Under the pieces are notes generated by a model. That model saw nothing but the letters and a program-made list of their open reading frames with translations, was not told the origin of the DNA and made no database searches. A stretch of 45,671 bases of DNA, taken from the IMG/VR virus record IMGVR_UViG_3300005294_000050, positions 1 through 45,671 of that record. The stretch is one strand, 5' to 3'. Source of the DNA: a virus. This document shows, in pieces, positions 1 through 15,480 of the stretch. A program made the translations under genes and the position numbers. The stretch's first letter is position 1; the number at the start of each line of letters is the position of its first letter.

Positions 1-466
1 AGCCCCGCCCCTTACGAGAGCACAAGTGGTCAAGCTCGTGGCGGGGCTTGTGTCCTCCGATGAGGATGTCCCAGACCACACGATGAAAAAGCCACGCCAC
101 CTTGTTGGCGCCCTCGGGCGTGAACCCAACGTGTCCGCCGCCGGTCGTCGGCCCTGAGGCTACCCAGCATTCTCCTTCGACGGTGATGAGCGATGCCAGC
201 CGCTCAAGGTTGATCGCTTCCACTTCGGGGCTCACGGTCAGGTGGTGGCCTTCGTGTTCGCGGCAGTAGAACTTCTTGTCACGCCCGGACCCCATGCGAC
301 GGCCTCCGTCGTCCTGGTGGTTGCGGCAGTCCTCCCACTGACAGCGAAGATGATTGCGTTGGCGAGCCCATGCCCGGGCGTGCGTTCCGCACAGATGCCG
401 GTACGCTGCGGGCCGCTTGCAATCGGCCTTGATACAAGGGTGATCCTGCGTCCGTCCACGCCCCAT
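1..466 (-). CDS. HNH endonuclease, partial (C-terminus outside window)
   Basis: The minus strand reads open from an ATG at 466 to the window edge (155 complete codons). A GGAG eight bases upstream of the ATG supports this start. The N-terminus has a small zinc-finger-like motif (CIKADC followed by LCGTH), as in the neighbouring gene at 662-1381. After a second Cys/His-containing stretch comes a region ending in HELDHLC, which matches the HNH_3-type core (E-L-D-H-x-C) of homing-like phage endonucleases. The distal Asn/His half of the core is cut off. Function is inferred as a site-specific DNA endonuclease, either free-standing or packaging-associated. Family assignment is fairly firm; the role in the element is unknown. 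Confidence 0.7.
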   Translation of the reverse strand, partial: MGRGRTQDHPCIKADCKRPAAYRHLCGTHARAWARQRNHLRCQWEDCRNHQDDGGRRMGSGRDKKFYCREHEGHHLTVSPEVEAINLERLASLITVEGECWVASGPTTGGGHVGFTPEGANKVAWLFHRVVWDILIGGHKPRHELDHLCSRKGRG

Positions 467-661
467 CGGGGGTACTCCATTCAGTAGATTTGTAATGTCA
501 GTAATTAATGGTATACGTCAGGAGGCCGAGGGGACCCGACGCCTTGCTTCCCCCGGGATTCCGTATGGAGATACCCGCCATCCGACGCCGAGGACCATCC
601 TCTTTGCTATTAGGTAGAGGCGTCCTTCGTGGCTCCTTGAAAGTCCTTTGATGGACCGTTT

Positions 662-1381
662 TCAGCCCAGCCTGTAAGGGCCTTCATGTTCTGCTCCGAG
701 GATGTTGACGGGTAGGCCATGTGCGAGAGCAAACGAGAGTTCGTCAATGCTCCGGGGCTTCCGTTTTCCGGGTGTCCATTCGTATTCGTCTCCGGCCTTA
801 GCCAACGCTTGTGAGCGCTGCGTAGAGACGTCGGCGTGCTTCGCGTGAAGAAGCGGCTGTAGGTGGGAGGGGCGAACGCAACAGGTCCTGCCGCACACGT
901 GGTCTAGCTCGACGAGTCGGGGAAGGTCGGGGTCGATGAGCAATTGCCAGAGCCACCGATGTGCGCGTTGCACTCCGCCGTGGTGGTACTTGCCGTAGCC
1001 GTCTTTGTCGGTCCTGCCTGCCCAGTCCCAGCATGACCCGTTAGGGATGATGAAGCGGGCGAACCAGTCCAGGGGGTCGATGTCTTGGGGCCGAACCCAT
1101 TTCGCGGGGCTGATGGTGACGATCGCCCCGTGGGTTTTCCATTGTTGGAAGTGCATTCCGCAGTAGCTCCGGGTCGCGTGCGCCCTCTGGCATTTCACGC
1201 CGTCAATCTCAGCGGTACATGTCTTCGGGTAGACGGGGCGGGGAGCACGCTTGACGACGGCTTTTCGCCTTCGTGGTTCGGTGGTCCCGGTCCTGCGTAG
1301 GCGTGCCCGATGGGTGCCACAAAGACCCTTCGCCATGTGGGGGCGTTGGCAGCCCTTTATCGTGCATTCTCTTTTTGCCAT
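662..1381 (-). CDS. HNH endonuclease with two N-terminal zinc-finger-like motifs
   Basis: The 239-residue protein has two short Cys/His motifs (C6-x4-C11-x9-C21-x2-H24 and C55-x8-C64-x9-C74-x2-H77). A middle segment of the NGSCWDWAG...GYGKY type follows, then an HNH_3 core at about 158-175 (ELDHVC, then CCVRPSHL). This order is typical of free-standing HNH endonucleases in actinobacterial phages, which cut DNA with a metal-bound His. The position expected to be Asn in the second half (CVNPxHL) reads Arg here (CVRPSHL), so activity may be altered. It is transcribed leftward with the partial HNH gene downstream. The 195-base gap between the two shows no other gene. Confidence 0.8.
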   Translation of the reverse strand: MAKRECTIKGCQRPHMAKGLCGTHRARLRRTGTTEPRRRKAVVKRAPRPVYPKTCTAEIDGVKCQRAHATRSYCGMHFQQWKTHGAIVTISPAKWVRPQDIDPLDWFARFIIPNGSCWDWAGRTDKDGYGKYHHGGVQRAHRWLWQLLIDPDLPRLVELDHVCGRTCCVRPSHLQPLLHAKHADVSTQRSQALAKAGDEYEWTPGKRKPRSIDELSFALAHGLPVNILGAEHEGPYRLG

Positions 1382-1449
1382 GGTGTCCGATCTGTTGGAA
1401 TGAGAATGGGAGAGCCGACCGGGTGGCCGACCCTCCCTCTCGTGGATTG

Positions 1450-2178
1450 CTAGCGCTTGTGGTTGGTCTTCTCGGGAAGGGTCGCCGCGTACTGGTCGTA
1501 CTCGTTGCGTGCTGCCACGGCTTCGGCGGCGCGTGCTGCCTTCAGGGCCTCAACCTTGGATGCCTCATACCGGTCGTAGGACAGGCCGACGCTCTTGTGT
1601 GAGTCCTGGCTGGGGTAGGACACGTGGTGGGTTACGCCGTCGATGGTCACTGACATGGCCTTGGATGTTGCGCTGCGCAGGGCACCGTCCCATGAAACGC
1701 GCTGTGTGGTGCTCGGACCCAGTACCTTGTCAGCGGTTTCGACACGTGAGGCCATGCCCTGAATGGCGTTTTTGTGTGCGTCGAGTTTCGCCAGGATCGC
1801 GTGGTGCTGGCGGTCTACGTCGCGGGCGAGCTTGGACCACATGCCGTCGATTTCGTCCTGTGTTAGCAGCCCGTCGACGGCACCGGATGAAACTTCTTCG
1901 CGCAGAGCCAACGCCCGGGTGGTGTTCTCCCGCTCGATTGCTTGGCGTACGTCGTGCTCGAATGCTTTGACGGCTGATTCGTGGCCGGCAAGGGCGCCCA
2001 TGACCTCAGCGATCTTGCTCATGGCTTTCTGGTCGCCGGTCGCCGCAAGGCTTTTGATACGCACGACTTCGGCACTGGCGTTGGCCTGTTGTTCCTTCGC
2101 CCCAGCCAATACTGTGCGGGCCTGCTCAAGTGCTGCTGCTGCGTCGGTGTGGGTCTGGGTGGAGGTCTTGATAGTCAA
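1450..2178 (-). CDS. Helix-rich hypothetical protein (TTG start)
   Basis: The start is set at a TTG at 2178 (MTIKTSTQTH) because AGGAG lies five bases upstream. The open frame continues upstream to 2313, but that part is Arg/Pro-rich and lacks a ribosome site. The 242-residue product is mostly predicted helix: a long Ala/Glu/Gln-rich stretch (residues about 8-150) of coiled-coil character, then a compact segment with WDGALRSATS and IDGVTHHVSYPS. That compact part recalls KTSC-like short domains, but I cannot assign a family with confidence. It lies between the HTH genes upstream and the HNH genes downstream in one leftward run. Confidence 0.6.
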   Translation of the reverse strand: MTIKTSTQTHTDAAAALEQARTVLAGAKEQQANASAEVVRIKSLAATGDQKAMSKIAEVMGALAGHESAVKAFEHDVRQAIERENTTRALALREEVSSGAVDGLLTQDEIDGMWSKLARDVDRQHHAILAKLDAHKNAIQGMASRVETADKVLGPSTTQRVSWDGALRSATSKAMSVTIDGVTHHVSYPSQDSHKSVGLSYDRYEASKVEALKAARAAEAVAARNEYDQYAATLPEKTNHKR

Positions 2179-2198
2179 TGTGTCTCCTAGAGAATGGG

Positions 2199-2215
2199 TG
2201 CCGGGAAGCCCGGCA
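2199..2215 (-). other. Perfect 7-bp hairpin ahead of the TTG-start gene
   Basis: TGCCGGG, AAG, CCCGGCA forms a perfect stem of 7 bp with a 3-base loop. It lies about 20 bases upstream of the TTG start of the leftward gene 1450-2178. There is no T tract, so it may be an mRNA leader structure or a weak terminator for the upstream HTH genes. A second small stem (CGGCG-TTTA-CGCCG) is at 2231-2244. Confidence 0.4.
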
Positions 2216-2343
2216 GGGGATCGAAAATGTCGGCGTTTACGCCGCCTTGGGGGTAGACAAGGGGAGGGTGCAGGCCGGAGTCTTAGATGGCGAATTCTGC
2301 CCGTTGAGGGCATGGCTAGCGGTTGCCCCGCCTTGTGGATCGG

Positions 2344-2679
2344 TCAGTTCATGACCGCTTCCGGCGCGTACCCGGTGGCGTTGAGCATTGCAATCTTCCG
2401 GTTCAAATCAAGTTCTTCCTTCATCGGGTTGTTGAGCGCCCATCCACCGTTGGGCGGCGTCGGCCCTAGCAAGTGGTGTGCCCTGAGTTCGGTCGTTGCT
2501 TTGTCGATGACGTCGTGGGTGGTGTCGAGCTGGCGGCAGAGTCGGTTGACGGTGACCTTGGCTGTGCCGCGGTAGCTTAGGTATCCGGCGAGCACGTGCC
2601 CGACTTCCTTGGCTGTTTCGCTGACGTGGGCCCTCTCCATGAGGTCTTCATATTCATCGATGCTGGTGACTGCTGCCAT
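2344..2679 (-). CDS. Small winged-helix-like DNA-binding protein (inferred)
   Basis: The start at ATG 2679 (MAAVTSIDEYE) has GAAGGGA eight bases upstream; an upstream in-frame ATG at 2709 lacks a good site. The 111-residue product has a central segment (TVNRLCRQLDTTHDVIDKA, then TTELRAHHLL) with the spacing of a helix-turn-helix followed by a wing. This arrangement is seen in GntR-like or replication-initiator-like winged helices. No enzymatic motif is visible. It starts two bases beyond the stop of the upstream gene 2682-2873, so the two are probably co-translated. Assignment is by secondary-structure pattern only. Confidence 0.5.
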   Translation of the reverse strand: MAAVTSIDEYEDLMERAHVSETAKEVGHVLAGYLSYRGTAKVTVNRLCRQLDTTHDVIDKATTELRAHHLLGPTPPNGGWALNNPMKEELDLNRKIAMLNATGYAPEAVMN

Positions 2680-2681
2680 TG

Positions 2682-2873
2682 CTACTTCCCTTCTGCGACG
2701 TGAGTCCACGTCTTGCGGTTGATGATTGAAGCGGTCGCGCTTCGGCCAAGCCCGTACTTGCGGCCGAGGGCTTCTAGGCTGATCCGCCCCGGGACGTATT
2801 CAGCGCGGATGCGGAGCACGTCGGCGTCTGTCAGTTTCGAGCGGTGGTTCTGTGTGCCAATGAGTCGTGGCAT
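2682..2873 (-). CDS. Small helix-turn-helix protein
   Basis: The start at ATG 2873 (MPRLIGTQNHRS) follows AAGGAAG at good distance; upstream codons to 2987 are an open but unsupported extension. The 63-residue product contains a resolvase/Hin-like helix-turn-helix: LTDADVLRIRAEYVPG, then LEALGRKYGLGRSATASII. The same small fold occurs in many actinophage proteins and at the ends of HNH endonucleases. It is the first gene of the leftward run and directly follows the repeat-rich leader, so it is a candidate regulator acting on those repeats; this is inference. Confidence 0.65.
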   Translation of the reverse strand: MPRLIGTQNHRSKLTDADVLRIRAEYVPGRISLEALGRKYGLGRSATASIINRKTWTHVAEGK

Positions 2874-3339
2874 ATGCTCTTCCTTTCTGTGTGTCCTCGG
2901 TAGGACTGGATCGGATGATCGAGGCAAAAAAAATGCCAGAGCCACGACACGATGAACGTGTGGTGCTCTGGCGTGACGCGGCCTCATGGCCGCAACTGTC
3001 GGATTGCCCGTGGAGATTCAGTTATCAAATATCGGTCCCCTCAACTAGCCCACCTTCGTGTGCCCCATCGGGGGAGACCTTCACTTATATATAGATGTCC
3101 GCTGGTAGAGATTCGTTCGGAACCTCTCACTTATATATAGCGTTCACTCGTTAGTGCTTGGTGTGACGCCTTCACTTAGTAAATACAGTTCACTCGTTGA
3201 GAGTCGTTCGGAAACCTCTCACTAGTAGATAGGTGTCGCACGCTTTCTGCGGCGTCATTTACCTACTCGTCAAGTCGATGGGTTGTGCCCTTTCCCTGGC
3301 TGAATCCCTTGTGATCGCTGGGATGTATCTTATGCGCCT
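2874..3339. promoter_or_regulatory. Long leader of the left element, no gene seen
   Basis: This 466-base stretch contains no convincing coding region; short frames here lack ribosome sites and family signals. It is more AT-rich than its surroundings and contains the four-copy repeat array at 3077-3232. It lies upstream of the leftward HTH genes and next to the element boundary, so it probably holds their promoter and possibly a replication or partition site. Confidence 0.4.
3077..3232. repeat. Four similar repeats spaced 45-47 bases
   Basis: The motif CCT(C)TCACT followed by an AT-rich TATATATAG-like tail occurs four times, with TCACT at 3081, 3127, 3172 and 3219. The first two copies share TCACTTATATATAG exactly; the third reads TCACTTAGTAAATACAG and the fourth TCACTAGTAGATAG. 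TCGTTCGGAAxCCTCTCACT recurs around copies 2 and 4, and GTTCACTCGTT follows copies 2 and 3, so the array looks like an old duplication of a roughly 91-base block. The regular spacing is typical of iterons or of an operator array. Confidence 0.65.
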
Positions 3340-3702
3340 AACAGTTATCCGGGCTTACCTGGGATGGCGAGCGTGCACGCGAATTCCGCCCGGGACGCTG
3401 TTACGAAAATATGTACCTTGCCCTTGCTAGCCGGCGAGAATATCAATTCGAACTTCGTGCTGCCCACGGTCGCTTCGTGCATCGATCTTGTAGTGCACTG
3501 CCAACGAGATTCTTCGGGGCACCGCGGGGTATCTGAAATCATCAAGCTCGGGCGTCGCGTGGAGAACGGACTTATTGAGTCATCGACGATTTTCCATCGT
3601 GTTGATGGCGAACTCCACATGACCCAATCAGCCGACCTGACACACGAAAAATTTGATCATGCCGGAGTTGACACGTCAACGCTTCTGGGGGCCGGACGAT
3701 GA
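3340..3702 (+). pseudogene. tadA: tadA (cpaF) 3' fragment: Tad pilus secretion ATPase C-terminus
   Basis: The frame encodes the last roughly 120 residues of a TadA/CpaF-type ATPase. It contains GLPGM-x-S-x-HANSARDA, the signature around the conserved His/Asn box, then CTLPLLAGENI and VPTVASCIDLVVH, as in actinobacterial TadA proteins. The Walker A and B motifs and the whole N-terminal half are missing. Recognisable sequence starts at about NSYPGLPGM (3340) and the frame is closed by TGA at 3301. The stop at 3700-3702 overlaps the tadB start (ATGA), so the operon end is intact. This is a tadA gene separated from its 5' part by the left element and inactive in this state. Confidence 0.85.
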
Positions 3703-4550
3703 GCCTGGTACTCGGGTTGCTTCTAGGATTGGGCAGTCTTCTGATCTGGCAGTCCTGTTGGACCGAACCGGCGAAACCGACGAAGGCCCGGAAACGACGA
3801 ATCGAGACCCTGCTGCTCCATGCAGGATTGGACAAGGTCAGTGTCGGTGGTTTCTTTTCGGCCATGGCTATTTGCTTCTTGATATTCGCCGTCATCGTCT
3901 TTGTCGTGACCCTGTCGCCACTCATCGCCATGATTTTCGGAATATTTGGAGCGATCCTTCCGGTCCTTGTGCTCCGTTGGCGCGCGGCCAAGCGCGCAGC
4001 CGCGCTTCGCGAACAGTGGCCCGACGTTGTGGATCACCTCCGTTCCGCGATACGGGCCGGACTTTCGCTTCCCGAGGCTCTGATCCAGCTGGGAACCCAG
4101 GGGCCCGAACCACTGCGGCAGGCTTTCACGGACTTCGGACTGGATTACCGCGCAACGTCGCGTTTTGATGAGGCCATAGAACGGCTGCGATATCGGTTGG
4201 CAGATCCCGTAGCCGACAAGATTATTGCGGCGCTGACGATCACCCGGGACGTGGGGGGATCCGACCTCGGAGAAATGCTCGGAACATTGGGCGGATTCTT
4301 GCGTGACAGCGCGAGGACACGTGGAGAACTCGAAGCCAGACAATCGTGGACCGTTAACGCCGCACGACTGGCCGTTGCAGCCCCATGGGTGATCCTGCTT
4401 CTGATGTCTACCCAGCCGCAAGCGGTCGCAGCCTATTCGACATTCAACGGGGCAATCGTGCTTTTGGCGGGGCTCCTCATCTCCTTCGTGTGCTATCGAA
4501 TCATGCTCGGTATTGGATCGCTGCCCAGCGAAGAACGGATCCTCAAATGA
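3699..4550 (+). CDS. tadB: TadB: Tad/Flp pilus inner-membrane assembly protein
   Basis: The 283-residue protein has a T2SSF (GspF-like) domain at about 104-230, including WPDVVDHLRSAIRAGLSLPEA and the typical ARTRGELEARQSW stretch. It is flanked by hydrophobic segments at about 3-18, 52-94, 222-240 and 250-270. TadB and TadC form the membrane platform that TadA drives to assemble Flp pili. The start overlaps the stop of the tadA fragment and its stop overlaps the tadC start. With tadA broken and an element upstream, expression from the native promoter is doubtful. Confidence 0.9.
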   Translation: MSLVLGLLLGLGSLLIWQSCWTEPAKPTKARKRRIETLLLHAGLDKVSVGGFFSAMAICFLIFAVIVFVVTLSPLIAMIFGIFGAILPVLVLRWRAAKRAAALREQWPDVVDHLRSAIRAGLSLPEALIQLGTQGPEPLRQAFTDFGLDYRATSRFDEAIERLRYRLADPVADKIIAALTITRDVGGSDLGEMLGTLGGFLRDSARTRGELEARQSWTVNAARLAVAAPWVILLLMSTQPQAVAAYSTFNGAIVLLAGLLISFVCYRIMLGIGSLPSEERILK

Positions 4551-5488
4551 GTCCCGGGCTCGCGTGGGGGTTGGCTTTGGGGCTGCTGTTGGGGGCCGGA
4601 CTCTGGTTGAGTTTCGTCAGGCTGCCTGCCCTGCGCCGGGTAGCCTTCGCAGACCGCATTGCCGGACAACTCCGTTCGGGGAGGGACCCCTCACGGGCTA
4701 GGCCCGGACAGGTTGGAGCCGAATCGCCGTTGGGTCCGCTGGTCAAGATCATGTGGCCTGTCCTCAAGGACCTCGTGTCCATACTGAACCGGTTCAACCC
4801 GGCCAGCGTCGGTTTACAGCAGCGATTGCAGCGGGCTGGACTCGACATCAGCATTACTGAATTCCGCATTTCGCAATTGACCTACGCGGGGGCTGGACTG
4901 TTGCTTGGAAGTCTTCTCGTTGCCGCATCCGTGGCTGGAGGAACCTTCAATGGATTTCTGTCGATTCCAATCCTTCTTGTTTCGACATTGGCGGGGTACA
5001 TCTTCCGAGAGTGGCACCTTACTGAACAAGGCACGAAGCGTAGCCGCCGCATCTTGGGACAGTTTCCTAGCATCGCTGAACTCATAGCCTTGGCGGTCGC
5101 AGCGGGGGAGAGCACCATTGGCGCCATTGAACGGGTGTGCAACAGCTCCCAGGGGGACTTACCAGATGAATTCAATGCCCTATTGGCTGACATCAGATCC
5201 GGAACGCCGATGGCCGCGGCTTTCCAGCACATGGCGAAAAGGCTCGATTTGAATGCCATGACCCGATTTGTCGATGCAATGACGGTCGCCGCGGAGCGGG
5301 GGACGCCGCTGGCGGAGGTCATGAAAGCGCAAGCCCAAGACGTGCGGGACGCCGCAAAGCGTGAACTCATGGAAAGTGCCGGACGCAAGGAAATCAGCAT
5401 GATGATTCCCGTGGTCTTTGGGATCCTTCCGCTGACGATCATCTTCGCGGTCTACCCGGGTCTTTCTCTCATTGACATGAACCTGTAG
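4547..5488 (+). CDS. tadC: TadC: Tad/Flp pilus inner-membrane assembly protein
   Basis: The start at ATG 4547 overlaps the tadB stop (ATGA). The 313-residue protein has an N-terminal membrane segment (residues 5-22), a pair of segments at about 115-160, a T2SSF domain at about 165-300 (FPSIAELIALAVAAGES, ERGTPLAEVMKAQAQDVR) and a final membrane segment (MMIPVVFGILPLTIIFAVYP). This is the expected TadC layout. It is full length and shows no frameshift. Downstream genes for pilin and pseudopilins are replaced by the prophage after one short fragment. Confidence 0.9.
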   Translation: MSPGLAWGLALGLLLGAGLWLSFVRLPALRRVAFADRIAGQLRSGRDPSRARPGQVGAESPLGPLVKIMWPVLKDLVSILNRFNPASVGLQQRLQRAGLDISITEFRISQLTYAGAGLLLGSLLVAASVAGGTFNGFLSIPILLVSTLAGYIFREWHLTEQGTKRSRRILGQFPSIAELIALAVAAGESTIGAIERVCNSSQGDLPDEFNALLADIRSGTPMAAAFQHMAKRLDLNAMTRFVDAMTVAAERGTPLAEVMKAQAQDVRDAAKRELMESAGRKEISMMIPVVFGILPLTIIFAVYPGLSLIDMNL

Positions 5489-5543
5489 CGAACGGAATCG
5501 ACGCGGTGCGAGAAAACAAAACCATCCAGGAAAGAAGGACACA

Positions 5544-5696
5544 ATGAAGGACGCATGGACTGCGGTAACCACCGCCGGGATGACGGCAACCTTGATCTGC
5601 TTGTCGCACGTGAATGGGCTAGGGCGGCGCATCCGCGAGGACGAACGTGGGGATGTCCCCGGATGGGTCATGATCACATTCATGAATAGGACCTGA
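5544..5696 (+). pseudogene. Pilin-like tad gene 5' fragment, cut by the prophage
   Basis: The ATG at 5544 follows AAGGA by a few bases. The 50-residue frame ends in EDERGDVPGWVMITFM followed by four codons and TGA. In actinobacterial tad loci the gene after tadC encodes a small Flp/TadE-like protein with a (D/E)RGDVPGWV motif at the start of its membrane helix, which continues for another 20-40 residues. Here the helix stops after about ten residues, exactly where phage-type sequence begins. The gene is therefore read as truncated by prophage insertion. A naturally short protein is less likely. Confidence 0.7.
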
Positions 5697-5700
5697 TCTC
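5675..5700. other. Probable attL junction
   Basis: Coding similarity to the host pilin-like gene ends at about 5681-5684 and the next gene rightwards is a prophage accessory gene. The sequence GAATAGGACCT at 5684-5694 recurs at 45631-45641. Large serine integrases usually leave only a very short identical core, so the exact crossover cannot be fixed from one junction. Confidence 0.5.
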
Positions 5701-5721
5701 ACTAGACTAATTGCGCTCGGC

Positions 5722-5751
5722 TTGCATTTCTGTGGCACTATGTGCTGTAAG
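5722..5751 (+). promoter_or_regulatory. Possible promoter of the TAC-like module
   Basis: TTGCAT at 5722-5727 and TGTAAG at 5746-5751 are 18 bases apart, upstream of the GTG start at 5779. Each matches its consensus at four or more of six positions. This is weak evidence, but the position inside the prophage just right of the junction fits an independently expressed module. Confidence 0.3.
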
Positions 5752-5778
5752 AGTCGCATTACTTTGGGGGGGTGAGCA

Positions 5779-6327
5779 GTGGGGACTCCGGATTACGCAG
5801 TGCCCGTTGGGAAGCGATCATGTTGTGCTGGACATCCAGGCACACCGCAGGGTTATAGGAACGATTGGGCCTACCACGCGGACTGCGATCGAGAGCTTGA
5901 TCTACTATCGAATGGAAAGTTCGACGATAAGATGACTCGTGCGGAGCAGTTGGACGCACAGCAGTTGCTTGAGGACCTGATGGAATGGGGTGCTCAAGCG
6001 GATCTCAGATTCCCTAGTAATTGGACGCGTCGGGTGAATGCCGAAGCAGCTGAAATTACGGCGCACGGTGGTTACCTGCTTGAGTTGAGGCATGTTCCTA
6101 AGGGGCAACCCAACAAGGTCTTCGGTCGGGAATTGAGGGCTTTGCGGCTTTACTACTACGAACCGCTGCGGCCGGAACAAACTTTGGCGGCACTTGCGTT
6201 AGGTTCTAAGCCGGCAAATGCTTCGGACTCGGCACTAGAACAAAATGAGGCCATTGACGCCGCTCACGAGCGGGCACAGCATTGGGATATCGCGTTGGAA
6301 CGCATGGAAGGGACGGAAACGCCATGA
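5779..6327 (+). CDS. HigB/RelE-like toxin of a TAC-type module (inferred)
   Basis: The start is the GTG at 5779, preceded by a G-rich ribosome site (GGGGG, then TGAGCA). The 182-residue product has, from about residue 50, the order seen in HigB-type toxins: a helical stretch (TRAEQLDAQQLLEDLMEWG), then a strand with LLELR, then strands RALRLYYYE and TLAALALGS, and a C-terminal helix (AIDAAHERAQHWD). This parallels mycobacterial HigB1 of toxin-antitoxin-chaperone loci, which cleaves mRNA in the ribosome. The N-terminal 45 residues are extra and a later start is possible. Gene order toxin first, XRE antitoxin second and ATGA coupling support the call. Similarity is by pattern, not by search. 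Confidence 0.6.
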   Translation: MGTPDYAVPVGKRSCCAGHPGTPQGYRNDWAYHADCDRELDLLSNGKFDDKMTRAEQLDAQQLLEDLMEWGAQADLRFPSNWTRRVNAEAAEITAHGGYLLELRHVPKGQPNKVFGRELRALRLYYYEPLRPEQTLAALALGSKPANASDSALEQNEAIDAAHERAQHWDIALERMEGTETP

Positions 6328-6800
6328 GCCACAACGAAGTAGCCAAGATGCGTGGCGAAGTTAGTCGTCGCGCGGACCGGCGGAATGTTACAGCTGATCA
6401 GCTCGCCGCGCGGGCCAACCTCTCCAGTCAGCGTGCAATGGTGCGGACCCTGGCTCAGATTCGTGAAGCCTCCCAGATGTCGGAGGCGGCCCTGGCAGAA
6501 GCTATAGGCGCAACTGAAGAGATCGTGGAGCAGATCGAAAACTTTGAATACGACCTCTCCTTGACTGAACTACGACACTTGGCCATCGCGCTCGACGCAA
6601 TTGTTGAGGTGAAGGTCTACGCGCGAAATGCTGCTGAGTATACGAGGTCGGTTCACCGTCAGTTGGAGGACCTGCTTCGCGGTGGCGGTCAAAGGGTATG
6701 GAGAAACATGGAATCCTCGCACCAGCAACGCCGGGCACTGAATGAAATGAATTTTGGCGGCCATGAATTTGCGTCTTGGGCAACAAAGGACCGCGCATGA
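6324..6800 (+). CDS. XRE-family antitoxin (HigA-like)
   Basis: The ATG at 6324 overlaps the preceding stop (ATGA). The 158-residue protein carries an XRE helix-turn-helix at about residues 35-90 (TLAQIREASQMSEAALAEAI, then VEQIENFEYDLSLTELRHLA). A roughly 60-residue C-terminal tail follows with many aromatic and hydrophobic residues (RVWRNMESS, NFGGHEFASW). Antitoxins of TAC systems have such an extension, the chaperone addiction region, which makes them depend on a SecB-like chaperone. It probably binds and neutralises the 5779-6327 product and represses the operon; both are inferred from the family. Confidence 0.65.
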   Translation: MSHNEVAKMRGEVSRRADRRNVTADQLAARANLSSQRAMVRTLAQIREASQMSEAALAEAIGATEEIVEQIENFEYDLSLTELRHLAIALDAIVEVKVYARNAAEYTRSVHRQLEDLLRGGGQRVWRNMESSHQQRRALNEMNFGGHEFASWATKDRA

Positions 6801-7228
6801 TCACTTACGATGTCCGGATACATCGGTTCGAGGTGTCGGCTGGCGGGGTGGAGGATCTGAGCGAAGGGGACGATCGGCTCGATTGGGATGTGGCTGCGCG
6901 CGCGTTGGATGAATCCGTTGCGCTGGTATCTGGCTACTTCCGAAATTCCACGGAGGACTATTTCGTACAGCTGCTCAGCTTCATGGTTATCAGCCATGAT
7001 GGTGAGTTGACGGAATTCGCGGACTTGAAAGAGTGGGCCGTTAAGAACGCAGTCGACAGGTTGTACGATGCAACCGCCCGCCAATTGAAGTCGCAAGCTG
7101 CCCTGATGAGCATTTCACTTCGCGTTCCAGAGGATGCGCCCGAAACCGAAATCGAAGAATTTCCTGATGACGACGGGACAGCCGAAGCTGACGAAAGCGA
7201 GTCGGACCGCGAGCCGGTGTCGGAGTAA
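6797..7228 (+). CDS. SecB-like chaperone of a TAC-type module (inferred)
   Basis: The ATG at 6797 overlaps the antitoxin stop (ATGA). The 143-residue protein is acidic, with alternating strand-like segments (YDVRIHRFEVSA, YFVQLLSFMVIS), then a helix (LKEWAVKNAVDRLYDATARQLK) and a short hydrophobic strand (ALMSISLRV). A very acidic tail closes it. SecB proteins have this order of strands, a long C-terminal helix with TxR and a final strand, and no membrane segment. Third place in a HigB-HigA operon is where TAC chaperones sit. Similarity to classical SecB is weak, so another small fold is possible. Confidence 0.5.
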   Translation: MITYDVRIHRFEVSAGGVEDLSEGDDRLDWDVAARALDESVALVSGYFRNSTEDYFVQLLSFMVISHDGELTEFADLKEWAVKNAVDRLYDATARQLKSQAALMSISLRVPEDAPETEIEEFPDDDGTAEADESESDREPVSE

Positions 7229-7239
7229 GGTTCCTCCGA

Positions 7240-8667
7240 TTATGAAATGGATGGTGGGTCTTCCCACAGACCGGCGACGGCGACCATGGAGCGTGGCCTG
7301 CCGGGCTTGACCAGCACGGGGTGGATGAGCCGGGAGAGCATGTCGCGGCGCACGGCGACGGGGAGTATGTCCCAGTTGGCCAGCAGGTCCGGGACGATCG
7401 CGGCTGGTGGCTTGGCTTCGGAGACGGCGAGGTTCCGCAACTGTGCCTCGGTGGTGGCCATCTCGGTTTTGGTTTGATCGCGGAGGCGTTCGTAGGAGTC
7501 CTGGGGGATGGTCCCGTCGACGAGTTTCAGGGTGAGGTTGTCCATGCGCGCCCCGAGCTTCACGAGCTTGCGCCGCAGCACGGCTTCCCGGTTGGTGACG
7601 GGTGTCTTCGTCGGTGGGGCTGGGAGGTCCTGGGCGGCCTGCGTGATGTCGTCGGCAATGCCACGCAGCCATTCCAGGACGGCGTCTTCCACGACGGTGG
7701 TGGCGACGTACCCGCCGGTATGGGCGCGCTTCTCGTTCGCGGCCTTGCACCGGTACTTCGCTGTCCTCCCAGAACCGAAGAGACCAGCGTTCATCGTGGA
7801 CCCGCAGGCGCAGCGGATGAGCCCGGAAAGTAGGTACTCGGACCGCTCGCTCCGCCGGCTCACGCGACGGGTCTCACGGCGCGCGAGATACTCCTCGAAT
7901 TCCTCTGTGGTGATGACGGGTTGGTGGGCGCCGGGGATGCGCTCGCCGTGGCGGGTGATGTATCCGGCGCCGAAGCCCTGGTCGAGGATGCGGCGGATGG
8001 TGCGGGCTGACCAGAGCCCGTCGCCGGACGGGCCGTAGCCGGTGACGGGCCGCGTGGGGCCTTCGTTCGCCCATTGGACGAGCGAATAGACGGATTGCCC
8101 GGAGTTGTACCTCCGGTACATTTCGGCGAGCACAGGGCCGCTCACAGGGTCTGGGGCGAAGCCATCCGCCCGGGTGTACTGGTACCCGAAGCGGGGTTTG
8201 CCGTTGGCGGGTAGTCCCTGGTTGACGCGGCGGGCGTGGGACTCTTTCCAGACGTCGCCGATCCTCTCGGATTCGAAGGCGGCGAACTCGGTGAGCATGC
8301 CCCGGGCGAGGCGTCCGGTGCTGGTCGACACGTCGAGCGGCTCGGTCGCGGACTCGATGCGCCCGCCGGCGGTCTCGACCCGGTCGGCGGCCACTGCCCA
8401 GTCGAGCCGGGACCGGGAGAGGCGGGACCATTTCCACAGCACGATGACATCAGCGGACCCGTCCTCGATCATGGCCATGACCCGGACGACGGCGGGCCGC
8501 TTCCAGGTCCGTCCGGAGATTCCCGGATCTGACTCAACTGCTACGACTTGGTACCCCTGCTGCTTCGCGTAGGCGCGCCCAGCGGTCTCCTGCAGCTCGA
8601 GGCTGATCGACTCCTCACGCGCCACGGACTGCCGCAGGTACAGCACCGCCTTCGGCTTGCCTGCCAT
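7240..8667 (-). CDS. Large serine recombinase (phage integrase)
   Basis: The product integrates and excises the prophage by serine recombination. The resolvase catalytic domain spans about residues 5-150, with the nucleophile in YLRQS (Ser14), then SISLELQ, DPGISG and W-K-W-S-R-L-S-R. A recombinase domain follows (about 165-270), then a zinc-ribbon-like segment (LIRCACGSTM ... YRCKA) and a coiled coil (about 345-410). Length is 475 residues, usual for the family. ATG 8667 is chosen because AGGGGAAG precedes it; ATG 8688 in the same frame has no ribosome site. It is convergent with the TAC-like module, with 11 bases between the stops. Confidence 0.93.
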   Translation of the reverse strand: MAGKPKAVLYLRQSVAREESISLELQETAGRAYAKQQGYQVVAVESDPGISGRTWKRPAVVRVMAMIEDGSADVIVLWKWSRLSRSRLDWAVAADRVETAGGRIESATEPLDVSTSTGRLARGMLTEFAAFESERIGDVWKESHARRVNQGLPANGKPRFGYQYTRADGFAPDPVSGPVLAEMYRRYNSGQSVYSLVQWANEGPTRPVTGYGPSGDGLWSARTIRRILDQGFGAGYITRHGERIPGAHQPVITTEEFEEYLARRETRRVSRRSERSEYLLSGLIRCACGSTMNAGLFGSGRTAKYRCKAANEKRAHTGGYVATTVVEDAVLEWLRGIADDITQAAQDLPAPPTKTPVTNREAVLRRKLVKLGARMDNLTLKLVDGTIPQDSYERLRDQTKTEMATTEAQLRNLAVSEAKPPAAIVPDLLANWDILPVAVRRDMLSRLIHPVLVKPGRPRSMVAVAGLWEDPPSIS

Positions 8668-8698
8668 AGTCTTCTTCCCCTGGTTCATTTGCTAGTGG

Positions 8699-9106
8699 TC
8701 AGTCTTGTGCGGCAGCTCGGACGTGCTGAAGATGCTGCAGGTCCTCGGGGGACAACGCGGCCAGTCGGTCGAGCACGACGTCCTCGGTCACCCACAGTTC
8801 ATCTGCCAGCTCACCCAGGCTTCGCGCCCACGGCACCTCCGTCACCAACCGCTCCCAGGCGATCAGTCGCCGCGCCGCAGCCTCCCGAACCTCTCGCTCT
8901 ACCGCTGCCGACTGGCAACCATGATGCCGACACTCCAAATGCACTAGCTCATGAGCCAACACACACCGCCGTTCCCGCTGCGACAACCCAGGATCAATCC
9001 AAATACGGCGCTCGCCGTCGGTTGCCGCCGGTATGCCTGGCGCGGGACGAGCCCAGATGACGATGACGTGAGCAAGGTGGCGCAATTCCCCCCAAGGATG
9101 AAACAT
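8699..9106 (-). CDS. ImmA/IrrE-type metallopeptidase
   Basis: The 135-residue protein has the zinc protease motif HELVH at residues 52-56 (AHELVHLECRHHG). Its N-terminus is of the M-[FY]-H-P-W-x-x-L-R type found in actinophage ImmA proteins, which is why ATG 9106 is preferred over ATG 9133. No clear ribosome site precedes either start. In ICEBs1 and related phages ImmA cleaves the XRE repressor to allow induction. The XRE repressor at 11304-11993 in the same leftward run is the likely target, though three genes separate them. The stop lies ten bases before an alternative integrase start. Confidence 0.85.
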   Translation of the reverse strand: MFHPWGELRHLAHVIVIWARPAPGIPAATDGERRIWIDPGLSQRERRCVLAHELVHLECRHHGCQSAAVEREVREAAARRLIAWERLVTEVPWARSLGELADELWVTEDVVLDRLAALSPEDLQHLQHVRAAAQD

Positions 9107-9192
9107 GATCCGAAGATATGTTCTAGATCTCATATGAAGCTACTGCTACGACCAAGGTCAGCGAACTGTCTGCGTGGCTTATTAACGTGGGC

Positions 9193-9726
9193 TTACTTGA
9201 AACTGTCCTTGGTGTAACTCCGGGTCTTGCTCTGGCGGTCTGCTGCCGCGTCGTCGCTGGCCACAACTTTCATGAGCGATCTCAGCAGCCAAATGATCCT
9301 CAGCGTTCCGTGCACGAGAAGGAGTATGCTCCACTCGAAAATCCAAGGACTTGCTGCCTGGAATTGCAGCCCTGCCAAGATGGCGGCGAAGAGGGAGAGT
9401 CCAGCTGCAGCGAAACCTGATACCGATGCAGATGTCCAATTCTTGTTGAGGCTCTCACCGGACTTAAGGCGCAGTTCGCGGAAGCGAGAACTGTTGGCGG
9501 TCAGCCCAAAAACGACGACAACGCCTGCGAAGCCGGCGACAATGGCAGCGGCGGAGGCCGCGCCCAAGTAGATGGCGATACCAGAATCGGCTGCGTCCTG
9601 CAGGGCTTGCCAGGGATTGGAAATGATGCCAAGGCAAGCCAATGCGAGATGAAGAAGCACCAGGCCGAAAGCGGACAGGGTTACGACGAGCGGACGGTCT
9701 TGAATTAGCCCGACTAGCTTGCGCAT
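9193..9726 (-). CDS. Four-helix membrane protein, possible exclusion or defence gene
   Basis: The 177-residue protein has four hydrophobic segments at about residues 12-34, 50-75, 100-122 and 126-148, with a charged loop between the second and third (SSRFRELRLKSG) and a hydrophilic C-terminus. The start has AAGGGG upstream. I do not recognise a family. Its location between integrase and repressor, expressed in the lysogen orientation, is where phages carry superinfection exclusion and antiphage genes; a role of that kind is only inference. It could act with the two genes upstream of it. Confidence 0.6.
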   Translation of the reverse strand: MRKLVGLIQDRPLVVTLSAFGLVLLHLALACLGIISNPWQALQDAADSGIAIYLGAASAAAIVAGFAGVVVVFGLTANSSRFRELRLKSGESLNKNWTSASVSGFAAAGLSLFAAILAGLQFQAASPWIFEWSILLLVHGTLRIIWLLRSLMKVVASDDAAADRQSKTRSYTKDSFK

Positions 9727-9753
9727 TTCTAACCCCTTCGAATACTTAATCGA

Positions 9754-10668
9754 TTATTGCAGATTGGACTCCCGGAACATGCGGATGGCCTCGGTCATCG
9801 CTTTAAGTACGGCCGGCGCCGTTGGCCGTTCGTCTTCTGAAGTTCCAACCAGGGCCGTTCCCGTGACCCTGTCCTTGAAGAAGTCGACAGCGTCCTTCTT
9901 GTATTCCATGCCTTCTTCATCGGTCGGGCTGAGGAGCGTCGCAGAAGCGGACCGAAACTTCACGTTCCCCATCATCGACTGAAGCTCGGCGGCAATCTGC
10001 GCCGCTGCGGCTTCGTCCGGGCGGGCATGGCCAAAGCTCAATTGGATGTCGACTGTAACGCCGCCAGCGCCGAGGTCCTGCACTTCTCGCATGGCGGTGC
10101 CAATGACACCGTCAGTGCCGGAGGCGAGGTCACTCCCTGGCTCGACTTTGAGGTGAAGCTTCGAGACACCGATGGCCGCGTGCAGGCGTGCCAGCTGGTC
10201 GTGACGGACGTATGGACGGAGTTCGAAAGTTTCGCCCTGCACGTCCATACCTGAGACCGCAGCAAGCCAATTCTCGATTGCGGACCAGGATGGTCCGGCT
10301 GTGGTGCGCAGCGCGGCGACGTAGGGGGTTCCCGAAATGGGTAGGAGGTAGGCAGGTTCGACGAGACCGGCTCCAGGCTCAGCCAGCTCCAGGGCTGTGG
10401 GGTCACTACCCTCGCGTTGCATGTCTGGCCAGTCTGCTCCATTGCGAGTCTTACCTATGTAGAAAAACTTCTCAGCAGGGGAAACTTCCTTTCGGGCCGC
10501 CCCAGCGTATTTGTGACCCAGGTACTGGTTACGAAGACGCTCGTCTTCAAGGCTGGCGACATGGTCATGCAGGGATGGCCAGAAGGTCGCGTCCATGGTG
10601 GACTCGATCTCGTCCGCGTTGGTCGTGATGGGTTCGAAAAAATAGATCTTGCGCTTGCGTCCTGCCAT
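9754..10668 (-). CDS. Hypothetical 304-residue protein of the lysogeny region
   Basis: The start is ATG 10668 (MAGRKRKIYFFEPI), preceded by AAGGGGGAACC; the open frame extends to 11076 but that part is an Arg-rich shadow of the next gene. The product is soluble, with no signal peptide, membrane segment or recognisable catalytic motif. It begins with a strand-like KIYFFEPIT. A central repeat-like pair of segments (FELRPYVRHDQLARLHAAI and VTVDIQLSFG) suggests a mixed alpha/beta fold. It sits between two membrane-protein genes in the leftward lysogeny run. I do not recognise it; an accessory or defence role fits its position only. Confidence 0.6.
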   Translation of the reverse strand: MAGRKRKIYFFEPITTNADEIESTMDATFWPSLHDHVASLEDERLRNQYLGHKYAGAARKEVSPAEKFFYIGKTRNGADWPDMQREGSDPTALELAEPGAGLVEPAYLLPISGTPYVAALRTTAGPSWSAIENWLAAVSGMDVQGETFELRPYVRHDQLARLHAAIGVSKLHLKVEPGSDLASGTDGVIGTAMREVQDLGAGGVTVDIQLSFGHARPDEAAAAQIAAELQSMMGNVKFRSASATLLSPTDEEGMEYKKDAVDFFKDRVTGTALVGTSEDERPTAPAVLKAMTEAIRMFRESNLQ

Positions 10669-10688
10669 GGTTCCCCCTTGATAGTCGT

Positions 10689-11279
10689 TTATCGTTGCTG
10701 GATTGCAGCGGTGCCGGTGTACGAGTCGTCGCCTGTGAAGCGAATGGTGCAGCTGTAGGAATTCGCGACCATGCCGCCGAAAGAGTTCTGTGATTCGACT
10801 GTCCCGGACGCGGTCCAGGACTTTCCGGACCCGGTTTCCGTTTCGTTGCTGAACTTGGCGGTGGAAGGGGCTTTGAGCTTCTCTTTCACGAGGGTTTGGC
10901 AATTGACCCTGGCATCCACTCCGTCTGGCTCCTTGTCGCCGGCGCCATTCATGAGTGCGACGCACCCACCGAGCAGAAGCACGAAAACGAGGACTACGGC
11001 CGCGGCGCAACCCATCCCCACCTTGCCGCCAGTTGACATGGGAGCCTGGGTCAAGAAGGCAGTAGCACCTTCCCAATGGTCGATCATGAAGCCGGCGTCT
11101 TTGATCTTTGCTTCGATGTCGTCCTGGTTATCCGCTGCTTCCAGGCTGCGGACTTCTTTGCCGGCATCGGTCGTGATCTGGATCTTCCGCAGCCGGACGA
11201 CGTTCTGCGCGTCTTCGCCCCCGACGAGCTTCTCCACCGCCGGCGCCACAATGGCGCGATGGTTGACCTTGCTCCCCAT
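10689..11279 (-). CDS. Membrane-anchored protein with extracellular C-terminal domain
   Basis: ATG 11279 (MGSKVNHRA) has GGGGGGG directly upstream. The 196-residue protein has a cytoplasmic N-terminal part (1-88) with strands VRLRKIQITTDAG and a helix, then one membrane segment (about 91-112, GMGCAAAVVLVFVLLLGGCVAL). The outer domain contains CQTLVKEKLKAPSTAKFS and GTVESQNSFG...SYSCTI. This outer domain resembles small secreted domains common in bacterial lipoproteins, with two Cys that could pair. The inside-out layout suits a sensor or surface factor. Its role is unknown; it neighbours the repressor gene. Confidence 0.6.
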   Translation of the reverse strand: MGSKVNHRAIVAPAVEKLVGGEDAQNVVRLRKIQITTDAGKEVRSLEAADNQDDIEAKIKDAGFMIDHWEGATAFLTQAPMSTGGKVGMGCAAAVVLVFVLLLGGCVALMNGAGDKEPDGVDARVNCQTLVKEKLKAPSTAKFSNETETGSGKSWTASGTVESQNSFGGMVANSYSCTIRFTGDDSYTGTAAIQQR

Positions 11280-11303
11280 GTTCCCCCCCAATAGTCCTGA
11301 TGT

Positions 11304-11993
11304 TTAGTCTTGCTCTGGCCCGGCCTGGGACTCTTCCCCAGCCTGACCGTGTGCTTCGTCGAACCGGTCCCGGTCCCTCTTGAAGTTCGGGTGCGCCGCC
11401 ATCTTGGAAAAGTCCGGCAGCTCGTCATCTTCCGGCTTCACGGAAAGCGCCTCATGCTCCTCGTCATCGACGAATCGCATATCTACGCTTGACGATGAAG
11501 CCCCGGACAACTGCGACTGGACATTCGCCTCAAAAAAAGAGCCCATCTTCTGTCGCGAGACAGAACCACCGCCACGCCGAGCTGCACCCGCAGGGCGCTC
11601 GCCGGATGGATTCGTTTCGGGTTGTTCCTGGTCGTCATGGTTGCTCGCTTCAAGGTCGATGAGGACCCGCAGCATCTCGATGACAGCTTTCCTGGACTTC
11701 GGCGAGAGGTTGTCTGTGCCGGGTGGGAGTTCGTCAGCGAGAGGCGGGCCCGGGACTGATTGTCCCGCTGCCGTGAACGCAACCTCATCGCTGACGCCGG
11801 CCAGCCAGGCGATAGCCCGGATGGTCTCGGTCGACGGCGTCGACTTGTACGTGCCGCCCAGGAGGGCATTCAGGGTCGCGTGGGTGACCTTGAATCCTTT
11901 TACCTGGGCTGCTTCAGCCATGCGCCGGCCGGAGAGCTGTTGCTCGTCCTTCGCCCTTTGCAGCAGCTTGCGTAGCGATGTCGTTGCGTTCAC
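11304..11993 (-). CDS. XRE-family immunity repressor (CI-like)
   Basis: The GTG start at 11993 faces the control region. The 229-residue protein has an N-terminal XRE-type DNA-binding domain at about 5-70 (LRKLLQRAKDEQQLSGRRMAEAAQ, then THATLNALLGGTY and ETIRAIAWLAGVS). A linker follows, then a region rich in Asp, Glu, Gln and Ser to the end. There is no LexA/CI protease-like Ser-Lys domain, so cleavage by ImmA rather than RecA-driven self-cleavage is the likely switch. It is divergent from the early operon, as a CI-type repressor should be, and is the first gene of the leftward lysogeny run. Confidence 0.85.
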   Translation of the reverse strand: MNATTSLRKLLQRAKDEQQLSGRRMAEAAQVKGFKVTHATLNALLGGTYKSTPSTETIRAIAWLAGVSDEVAFTAAGQSVPGPPLADELPPGTDNLSPKSRKAVIEMLRVLIDLEASNHDDQEQPETNPSGERPAGAARRGGGSVSRQKMGSFFEANVQSQLSGASSSSVDMRFVDDEEHEALSVKPEDDELPDFSKMAAHPNFKRDRDRFDEAHGQAGEESQAGPEQD

Positions 11994-12017
11994 AGTGCCA
12001 ATCTCGCTGATTCGTAA

Positions 12018-12144
12018 TCACTTGGGGAACTGGTCGCCAATAGGTGAGCGACAAGTAATTACTTCATCTTGCCAGCACTTGAGCGGAAATTCTGGATTGT
12101 CGCCTTGACAAGTAGATGCCAGATGGAATAGGTTCCACTTGTCA
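12018..12144. promoter_or_regulatory. Operator array between repressor and early genes
   Basis: The motif (C/T)GACAAGT occurs at 12049-12056 and 12106-12113, and inverted (ACTTGTCA) at 12137-12144; looser CACTTG copies are at 12019-12024 and 12076-12081. The first exact site extends into a 12-base perfect palindrome, AAGTAATTACTT (12053-12064). The last two form an 8-base perfect inverted pair enclosing the early promoter region. The layout is that of CI/Cro operators. A possible leftward repressor promoter has its -35 (TTGGCG, minus strand) at 12040-12035. Confidence 0.6.
12105..12133 (+). promoter_or_regulatory. Early rightward promoter
   Basis: A perfect -35 TTGACA lies at 12105-12110, followed after 17-18 bases by a weak -10 (around AATAGGT, 12127-12133). 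The -35 overlaps the TGACAAGT operator-like site, so repressor binding there would block the polymerase. The -10 is poor and may need help, or the true start may differ. Confidence 0.55.
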
Positions 12145-12219
12145 GATCGAAAAAAGGAAGGAATACTGATCATGCGAACCAATCGTTCACATCTCAAGCT
12201 CGTTCGAAAGGAGGCCTGG

Positions 12220-12492
12220 ATGCGCGTCAAGGATCCGGCCGCACTCCGGCGGAAGCGGGTGAACCGCAAGTACAGCCAGCGCGATCTGGCCATGCTTGTT
12301 CGGCGCTCGCAAACCACAATCCACTTGCTGGAGACCGGCGGCATGAAGACCTTGTCCGAGGACTTGGCGTTGCATATCGCGGCACGCCTGGATGTCGACT
12401 GGGAGGACTTCTTCCTGCTCGAGGAGGATGAGGTAATGCCTAAAGTGCCAAATGGAATGCATTCCAAATCCACCACCTCAATGGCGTCCTGA
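12220..12492 (+). CDS. Cro/excise-like HTH protein
   Basis: The ATG at 12220 follows AAAGGAGG by five bases, an excellent ribosome site, and its MRVKDPAALRRKR start fits related actinophage HTH proteins. The 90-residue product has an XRE helix-turn-helix (YSQRDLAMLVRRSQTTIHLLE) and ends with VMPKVPNGMHS. First in the early operon and opposite the repressor, it is the expected Cro or early switch protein. An in-frame ATG at 12172 with its own GGAAGG site would add 16 residues, so two forms are possible. Confidence 0.8.
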   Translation: MRVKDPAALRRKRVNRKYSQRDLAMLVRRSQTTIHLLETGGMKTLSEDLALHIAARLDVDWEDFFLLEEDEVMPKVPNGMHSKSTTSMAS

Positions 12493-12512
12493 TCACCCCA
12501 CCAAAAGAAAGT

Positions 12513-12540
12513 GCCCCCAGCTGCACGAACAGCTGAGGGC
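12513..12540 (+). other. Hairpin in the early leader
   Basis: GCCCCCAGCTG, loop CACGAA, CAGCTGAGGGC pairs over 11 positions with one mismatch. It lies between the Cro-like gene and the next start, without a T tract. It may be a transcript-processing or attenuation structure. Confidence 0.45.
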
Positions 12541-12573
12541 GAAGGAATCCGCTACAGGAAGTTAGGAAATCCA

Positions 12574-12720
12574 ATGTCTACGATACCGGAGACCCGGCAC
12601 CCCGTCACGGCGGGGGAGCGGCGCCCGACCCGCGAGGAATGCATCCAGGCAGCCGCCGTCGTCCTCGCAACCGCGGTCCGGGACATCATCCCGACCCAAG
12701 CCGAAGATGTCGCAGCGTGA
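12574..12720 (+). CDS. Small hypothetical early protein (48 residues)
   Basis: ATG 12574 (MSTIPETRHPV) is preceded by TTAGGAAATCC. The short product has a helix (REECIQAAAVVLATAVRDII) and no recognised motif. Its stop overlaps the GTG of the next gene (GTGA), typical of this operon. The longer open frame from 12511 runs through the leader hairpin and is unlikely. Unknown function. Confidence 0.55.
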   Translation: MSTIPETRHPVTAGERRPTREECIQAAAVVLATAVRDIIPTQAEDVAA

Positions 12721-13112
12721 ACGCCGCGGACTTCAAGACCGGCACGCGGGTGTGCTTCGACGACGACAGCAGCAAATTCGGCGTCGTCATGGACGACAAC
12801 GCCGGGCGCGCTGAATACCCGGGCTTCGTGCCCGTCCAGTGGGACAACGGCTACCGCACGATGGCGTATGCCGCTCGCCTCATCCCCATAAACTCCCGGT
12901 CGGCCACCCCCCAGGCCGGCCGGGGCCAGACCGCCGGGACGTCCGCTTCCCCCCAGGACGTCCCGGCACCTACCGCACCGCGCACCCTGCCGAACCTGAT
13001 CCGGCGAACGCTCGGCATGCAGGAGCACCGCACCCACGACCGCGCTAACGGAGCCGTGGTGATCGATCCCGAACAGAGGCATCACATCACCGTGAAAGGG
13101 GAGACCAAGTGA
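12717..13112 (+). CDS. Hypothetical early protein with SH3/KOW-like N-terminus (inferred)
   Basis: The GTG at 12717 overlaps the preceding stop. The 131-residue product has an N-terminal segment rich in short strands (FKTGTRVCF, KFGVVMDD, FVPVQWDNGYRTMAYAARLIPI) that looks like a small SH3-like barrel. A Pro/Ala-rich linker follows, then a basic segment (LPNLIRRTLGMQEHRTHDR). Such proteins are frequent among actinophage early genes, with no known role. Overlaps the next gene by four bases. Confidence 0.6.
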   Translation: MNAADFKTGTRVCFDDDSSKFGVVMDDNAGRAEYPGFVPVQWDNGYRTMAYAARLIPINSRSATPQAGRGQTAGTSASPQDVPAPTAPRTLPNLIRRTLGMQEHRTHDRANGAVVIDPEQRHHITVKGETK

Positions 13113-13369
13113 ATGAGCTGACATACATCCTCGCCAACAACGTCGCGCTGTCCGCGCTGGCCGCATGGCTTCTCACGGAGAAAGTCCTCCAGGTCCGTGC
13201 ACGCCGCAAGGAACACGCCGCCCGGGTAAAGACGATGGCCGCCGCCCAGCGCAGCGCCGACGAGCTCGGCCGACGGCTCGCGTTCGGATCGTCGATCGGC
13301 CACCTGATGGGTGTCCCGGACTGCAACGACCCCAACTGCATCATCCACAAGAAAGGCGAGACCCGATGA
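13109..13369 (+). CDS. Small membrane protein with CxxxxC motif
   Basis: The GTG at 13109 follows GGGGAG by five bases and overlaps the preceding stop (GTGA). The 86-residue product has a hydrophobic N-terminus (about 5-22, TYILANNVALSALAAWLL), a basic helix and a short C-terminal motif DCNDPNCIIH of metal-binding type. Its stop overlaps the antirepressor start. Unknown role; a similar C-terminal Cys pair recurs in small early actinophage proteins. Confidence 0.6.
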   Translation: MNELTYILANNVALSALAAWLLTEKVLQVRARRKEHAARVKTMAAAQRSADELGRRLAFGSSIGHLMGVPDCNDPNCIIHKKGETR

Positions 13370-14109: not shown

Positions 14110-14453
14110 ACGCCGTGACCGAGCGCATGCAGCGTGCACGGCAGTACCTGGAGCGAGCGGCGCGCCTCGAGGGGACGGGCCAGCCGGTGCTCTGCCAGAC
14201 GTACGTCCGGCGGGCCGGCGAACTGATCGAGGAGACCCGGACCGTGGTTGCGGCTCACCGGGGCAGTCGGTTCAAGTCGCAGCTGGCCATGGAGCGGGCC
14301 GCCGGGCTCATTGAGGTGTGGCTGGCTCCGCAGTTCGGCGCGTTCCAGGACGCCGTGGCGCGTGCTACGGAGTCCATGGAAAAGAACGCCAGACGGATCA
14401 GGGCGATGAACGAGTGGTTCGAGCGCCCCCTGCCGCTGCGAGGTCCGTCGTGA
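14106..14453 (+). CDS. Helical hypothetical protein (115 residues)
   Basis: The GTG at 14106 overlaps the antirepressor stop (GTGA). The product is nearly all predicted helix and positively charged (RMQRARQYLERAARLE, RRAGELIEETRTVVAAHRG, AVARATESMEKNARRIRAM). There is no signal or membrane segment and no known motif. It belongs to the tightly overlapping early run 12717-15164; function unknown. Confidence 0.6.
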   Translation: MNAVTERMQRARQYLERAARLEGTGQPVLCQTYVRRAGELIEETRTVVAAHRGSRFKSQLAMERAAGLIEVWLAPQFGAFQDAVARATESMEKNARRIRAMNEWFERPLPLRGPS

Positions 14454-15478: not shown

Positions 15479-15480
15479 TC

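Follow-up and report, generated by a model that had tools for sequence, protein, structure and literature searches.

Two unrelated mobile elements in one tad pilus operon of a soil-type bacterium, and recurrent insertion into tad genes of the Micrococcaceae

Organisation of the locus

The window analysed here (the whole stretch of 45,671 bases, an IMG/VR virus record) contains host DNA at 3354-5680, which is a fragment of a tad operon flanked on its two sides by different mobile elements; the pilus operon of a soil-type bacterium has thus been hit by two unrelated mobile elements. The features of the window are listed below.

1-3354, no strand assigned: right end of the left mobile element, with HNH and HTH genes, iterated repeats and an att junction inside tadA; the rest lies beyond the window
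2-466, minus strand: HNH endonuclease gene, cut by the window edge (PHROG 826, E 7e-7)
662-1381, minus strand: HNH endonuclease, 239 aa (PHROG 3593, E 3e-22; 42% over 184 aa to a protein of the tadA element of genome G094)
1450-2313, minus strand: 287-aa protein with no assigned function (33% to the G094 tadA element)
2682-2987, minus strand: protein of 101 aa, weakly similar to HNH/HTH proteins (40% over 60 aa with the G094 tadA element; weak PHROG matches)
3341-3370, plus strand: att junction between the left element and tadA, codon ~297 (GLPG^M), a codon common to eight genomes
3354-3702, plus strand: tadA, C-terminal part, codons ~298-410 of 410 (~113 codons), aligned with the intact TadA of loci L002, L003 and L004
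3699-4550, plus strand: tadB, whole, 283 aa (PF00482, 5e-10)
4547-5488, plus strand: tadC, whole, 313 aa (PF00482, 9e-17; 91% identical to L002)
5544-5680, plus strand: Flp pilin gene (flp), first 45-46 codons, followed by phage DNA with a stop at 5694-5696
5660-5700, plus strand: attL of the prophage in flp, defined against attL/attR of related prophages and the other ends in G157 and G254
5697-45671, no strand assigned: tailed prophage, cut by the window end (PHROGs: repressor, antirepressor, ParB-like, terminase, portal, endolysin)
7240-8688, minus strand: large serine integrase, 482 aa (PF00239, PF13408, PF07508; 91% identical to the integrase of the G001 flp prophage)

The host segment is recognisable as a tad operon from the tadA-tadB-tadC-flp gene order, the T2SSF domains (Pfam) and the TadA-type ATPase, the intact TadA of L002 having NCBIfam TIGR03819 as its top match, though below the cut-off of that model. 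The original prediction of a tad locus interrupted twice, with truncated tadA and pilin genes around whole tadB and tadC, is borne out by both edges of the segment, which are sharp in blastn comparisons with three independent tad loci: homology begins at 3349/3350 in all three and ends at 5677 in the two loci with an uninterrupted pilin gene. The alignment with intact loci of relatives that had been proposed as a check gives the same picture. L003 (a MAG of the Micrococcaceae) and L004 (Arthrobacter rhombi) have an unbroken TadA and a full 80-aa pilin, with tadE, tadF, tadG and prfB beyond flp in the same operon; L002 (Micrococcaceae bacterium RIT 802) has a complete TadA of 410 aa and a pilin gene broken at the codon used in the window, where a related 44.8-kb prophage resides. 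The retained part of the pilin reads 'MKDAWT...ERGDVPGWVMIT' before phage DNA and a stop follow, and its continuation in the intact genes of L003 and L004 is 'LMSAVLVAALLAVAGPRLSDLFNQAINRVSGLG'. The N-terminus of tadA and the C-terminus of the pilin fall outside the virus record, and the equivalent halves are seen in relatives. Sharp junctions, intact relatives and both gene halves around equivalent elements elsewhere place each element within a gene.

The interrupted genes show no sign of decay. Compared with L002, the C-terminal part of tadA, tadB and tadC are free of stops and have dN/dS values of 0.04-0.06 (tadB 0.04), resembling those of intact pairs among themselves; the tad genes therefore worked until a short time ago, their interruption being recent or often undone.

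The element in tadA

To the left of 3349, blastn finds no homology to intact tad loci. Three proteins encoded there (the 239-aa HNH endonuclease, the 287-aa protein and the 101-aa protein) match, in the same order, proteins of a 7.4-kb serine-integrase element lodged inside the tadA gene of G094; for the 287-aa protein this element is the only family match in 395 genomes. Only one end of the left element is present in the record and window positions 1-3354 encode no integrase; in the G094 element, the integrase is located at the other end. Furthermore, G025 carries a complete 5.0-kb serine-integrase element with tadA halves on both sides, at the codon of the window junction. The most likely identity of the left element is thus a small, satellite-like serine-integrase island of the G025/G094 group, which would carry its serine integrase beyond the window. 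Junctions at codon ~297 in eight genomes (G025, G059, G121, G227, G275, G364, G016 and G186) have GG(N)CT(N)CC in common, and the crossover dinucleotide of the left element is predicted to be the CT at 3354-3355. Searches of phage and plasmid collections returned no DNA match to the left element, and viral scans with two of its proteins returned no matches.

Just before the left junction, four spaced repeats (TCACTTATATATAG...TTCAC) occur at 3081-3101, 3127-3147, 3172-3192 and 3219-3239, possibly serving as binding sites of an integrase, an excision factor or a replication protein.

The prophage in the pilin gene

The right-hand element has the hallmarks of a large serine integrase prophage, namely Resolvase, Recombinase and zinc-ribbon domains in an integrase encoded 1.5 kb from the att site at 5679. 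Related integrases are found in the flp gene of six genomes (G001, G021, G092, G157, G254 and G338) and three viral contigs (L010, L011 and L012); one of 51% identity is instead inserted in an MFS transporter gene. The flp prophages measure 44.8 kb in G001, 40.2 kb in G021, 39.3 kb in G092 and about 37-38 kb in G254/G157. In the five flp-prophage genomes with both ends seen, the N-terminal half of the pilin is on one side and the C-terminal half (located by tblastn) on the other, with tadE/F/G-prfB beyond; the G338 locus (L017) was counted as flp from a pilin C-half 1 kb from the integrase. The attL and attR of each flp prophage share a YT dinucleotide in CAC(N)YTGATG, and the crossover of the window prophage would accordingly fall on the TT at 5679-5680, as judged from these motifs. 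The terminase region is ~80% identical to that of Arthrobacter phage Judy, and a phage gene just before the endolysin gene contains collagen-like Gly-X-Y repeats (window 43780-44160).

The two elements had been predicted to be independent, and they are indeed unrelated, the genes of the left element matching a different element class; the idea of a single element seen twice (for example, in a circularly permuted record) was rejected on the same ground. The content of the window is best explained by a temperate phage of ~40-45 kb in flp and a small island in tadA, each integrated independently and site-specifically.

Recurrence of tad insertions in the Micrococcaceae

A tad gene is cut in at least 35 of the 395 sampled Micrococcaceae genomes (tadA 21, flp 7, the pilin-like gene of a second tad cluster, tad-2, 5, tadB 1 and tadC 1), a lower bound covering the relatives of two integrases and one survey. 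For tadA, the G025 integrase was used to search the 395 family genomes, and 28 genomes were then searched for TadA; both TadA halves lie on one contig, 5-25 kb apart, in 14 genomes, and on separate contigs in others. The insertions use 12 target sites in five genes. The sites in tadA are near codons 91, 136, 163, 205, 297, 308 and 327, and viral contig L193 adds one at ~262; insertions fall at ~140 in tadB (G138), at ~290 in tadC (G052 and viral contig L194) and at ~46 in flp, and the tad-2 pilin-like gene is cut at the Flp motif TAEYA in G376, G170, G270, G365 and G038. One locus near tad-2 (L104 of G140) was left out of the count. The claim that tad genes are favoured attachment targets is strongly supported by these counts, and the tadA and flp sites are established attachment sites in the family, the flp site being used by one clade of large serine integrases and the eight tadA sites by several other lineages.

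Double interruption of a tad operon occurs again in G364 (L113), where tadA is split by two different serine-integrase elements (1444-9985 and 10092-18548) at codons ~297 and ~327. In G057 (L172, about 2394-2440), the comM/yifB gene next to dprA is interrupted, and the adjoining serine integrase belongs to the tadA-targeting clade. Several interrupted copies are decaying: the C-half in G094 has an in-frame stop, and the same degenerate tadA C-half stands beside an element in the viral record IMGVR_UViG_2926353618 (L009) and in G391 (L124), and looks like an old, decayed insertion.

Two candidate observations were rejected. The open-frame length of N-terminal halves had been considered as a sign that elements restore TadA, and the frames past the junction proved unrelated to TadA; a putative 301-aa gene near tad-2 proved to be the antisense of the tad-2 pilin gene. 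The tad-2 pilin-like gene adjoins a TIGR03817 helicase gene (loci L098, L099, L100, L103 and L149).

Target-blind survey and integrase phylogeny

In a survey made without regard to target, 120 family genomes yielded 65 PF07508 recombinases (E 1e-10 or better), and 60 regions together with three already known gave 63 surveyed loci. Eight of the 63 recombinases lie in the tad-1 operon (G025, G059, G016, G105, G096, G062, G052 and G117), against about 0.1 expected from operon length, random insertion being a crude null since integrases are site-specific. One further recombinase is in the tad-2 pilin gene (G038) and one in comM/yifB (G057), so that 10 of 63 are in tad-1, tad-2 or comM; the remaining 53 lie elsewhere, and some of these loci may be unrecognised tad targets. 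On a FastTree phylogeny of 95 integrases, the tad/comM label needs 15 changes, 12 of them forced by well supported branches, and integrases of different sites are mostly 18-45% identical. With 12 sites and at least 12 forced label changes, the targeting is recurrent and has been reached convergently by unrelated integrases.

Across 13 tadA inserts (72 proteins), the commonest families are those of serine recombinases, invertase-like resolvases and HNH endonucleases; three proteins are HK97-type capsid proteins, found in 5-13 kb islands, and single proteins match type IIG restriction enzymes, a KAP NTPase, TIR and Mob_Pre. By their gene content, the tadA elements look like phage satellites and defence-carrying islands, and the HK97-type capsid proteins suggest that some islands are satellites building their own capsids.

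Possible reasons for the targeting of tad genes

The interrupted genes (tadA, tadB, tadC, flp, the tad-2 pilin gene and comM) would have DNA uptake and processing as their common property. In a study of Micrococcus luteus, every tad-1 or tad-2 deletion but that of tadB abolished transformation, the loss of tadB lowered it more than 100-fold in one orientation, and the tad mutants showed no adherence defect (PMC4322843). Integrated elements can be deleted by transformation, and elements in comK, comYC, comFA, comM and comEC have been read as countermeasures to it (PMC4774983, PMC12637031). The rest of the uptake machinery is present in the hosts, with ComEC (PF03772) in all 20 tested, DprA in three of three and a prepilin peptidase in three of three. 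As for comEC and dprA as direct targets, no insertion was found, the dprA match being the neighbour of the interrupted comM.

It is therefore probable, with moderate confidence, that elements in tad disable competence and so escape removal by transformation, which would make the tad insertions, as we infer, the actinobacterial counterpart of insertions in com genes. The tad pilus would be the DNA-uptake pilus of natural transformation in the Micrococcaceae, a role extended to the present host from M. luteus; integration would take out the secretion ATPase (tadA) or the pilin (flp), and a cell without a working tad system would become non-transformable. Such a cell would take up no empty allele and the element would not be replaced, escape from removal being the presumed benefit for which the element is selected. 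Confidence in this reading is held at its present level by the double insertions and by the 53 of 63 recombinases that lie elsewhere, and the finding of no interrupted comEC also speaks against it.

The double insertions (in the window and in G364) also fit a harmless landing site, since a second element adds no loss, and gains nothing from inactivation, once the pilus is gone. On this account, conserved and dispensable tad genes are reliable, cheap places to land, the loss of competence is a side effect, and purifying selection (dN/dS ~0.05) conserves the attB sequences. Nevertheless, one operon takes 8 of 63 recombinases where about 0.1 is expected by length, and the other identified targets (the tad-2 pilin gene and comM) would share a function in transformation rather than mere dispensability, which leaves this an unlikely explanation, if one of some weight.

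Phages use pili, some Flp pili included, as receptors. The element on the right is itself a phage, and the original prediction had offered receptor loss as a possible reason for the insertions; a resident element would then exclude superinfection by removing the tad pilus. This proposal fares poorly: most tadA insertions are small islands of 5-25 kb, only some of them with capsid genes, one surveyed integrase of the tadA-targeting clade sits in the intracellular comM, which has no surface role, and no tad-dependent actinophage was found. Considering the comM insertion and the small islands, the disabling of competence fits better than receptor loss, which is improbable.

A reversible switch, also raised in the original prediction, would have regulated excision bring back tadA and flp whenever pili are required (a model put forward for the Listeria comK prophage); it is more doubtful still and appears very improbable. 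Integration is precise, so that excision would restore the reading frames, and the tad genes of the window are without decay; against this, the two elements would need to depart jointly, and several interrupted copies are decaying (the in-frame stop in G094, the degenerate copies in G391 and L009). Finally, two insertions in one window would by themselves prove no preference, but a chance landing of two elements close together in tad genes that are not special is refuted by recurrence: at least 35 of 395 genomes have an interrupted tad gene, and 12 sites are used.

Comparison with known systems and significance

The precedents for loss of competence through insertion are elements in comK, comYC, comFA, comM and comEC (PMC4774983), known from Listeria for comK, streptococci and lactococci for comYC/comGC, Bacillus and Streptococcus for comFA, and Acinetobacter, Aggregatibacter and Pseudomonas for comM. 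As in these cases, site-specific integration in tad splits a gene of DNA uptake or processing, unrelated integrases converge, and some serine integrases target a pilin-like gene. Unlike them, the insertions affect an actinobacterial tad (Flp pilus) operon and not the ComG/ComY pilus, 12 sites in five genes are used, and some loci are doubly occupied. M. luteus, with its tad-1/tad-2 transformation, belongs to the same family as the present hosts and has comEC and dprA; disruption of its tad system by mobile elements is not described in the accessible part of that study (PMC4322843), and the orthology of the present operon with M. luteus tad-1 rests on gene order, not sequence comparison. No earlier report of tad as a mobile-element target was found in the literature searched, which omits many subscription journals and preprints.

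If the disabling of competence is the correct reading, transformation and mobile elements would be in conflict not just in Firmicutes and Proteobacteria, where this is documented, but also in a third large phylum, whose uptake pilus is of another kind, and the insertions would provide independent genomic evidence for a DNA-uptake role of the tad operon in Arthrobacter-like bacteria. It would further explain why strains of one genus may be non-transformable, and would supply integrases of defined attB site as a set of tools for the engineering of Micrococcaceae hosts. A wider and decidedly tentative possibility is that the tad pilus is a general battleground of transformation and mobile elements in Actinobacteria, on which integrase lineages converged separately; some elements might excise in competent cells, toggling transformability, and the frequency of occupied sites might record which lineages still transform.

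Related phages

The terminase gene of the window prophage is about 80% identical to that of Arthrobacter phages Judy, Bridgette, Constance and others, their DNA similarity being limited to about 7% of the region searched. Arthrobacter phage Maja (L008) has a serine integrase that is 69% identical to that of the window prophage and belongs to the flp-targeting clade; immediately after it comes a sequence (GCACTAGTCAC...CATGAC) similar to the attR of the flp prophages L011 and L012. The comparison comprises the integrase and the adjoining sequence, the Maja record giving no integration site; by this likeness, Maja may integrate in the tad pilin gene too, and Maja-type phages would, if tad insertion does serve escape from transformation, become testable for integration in tad. 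In Maja (about 5400-5470), the serine integrase gene is followed by a tyrosine integrase gene, with the flp-type attR-like sequence between the two.
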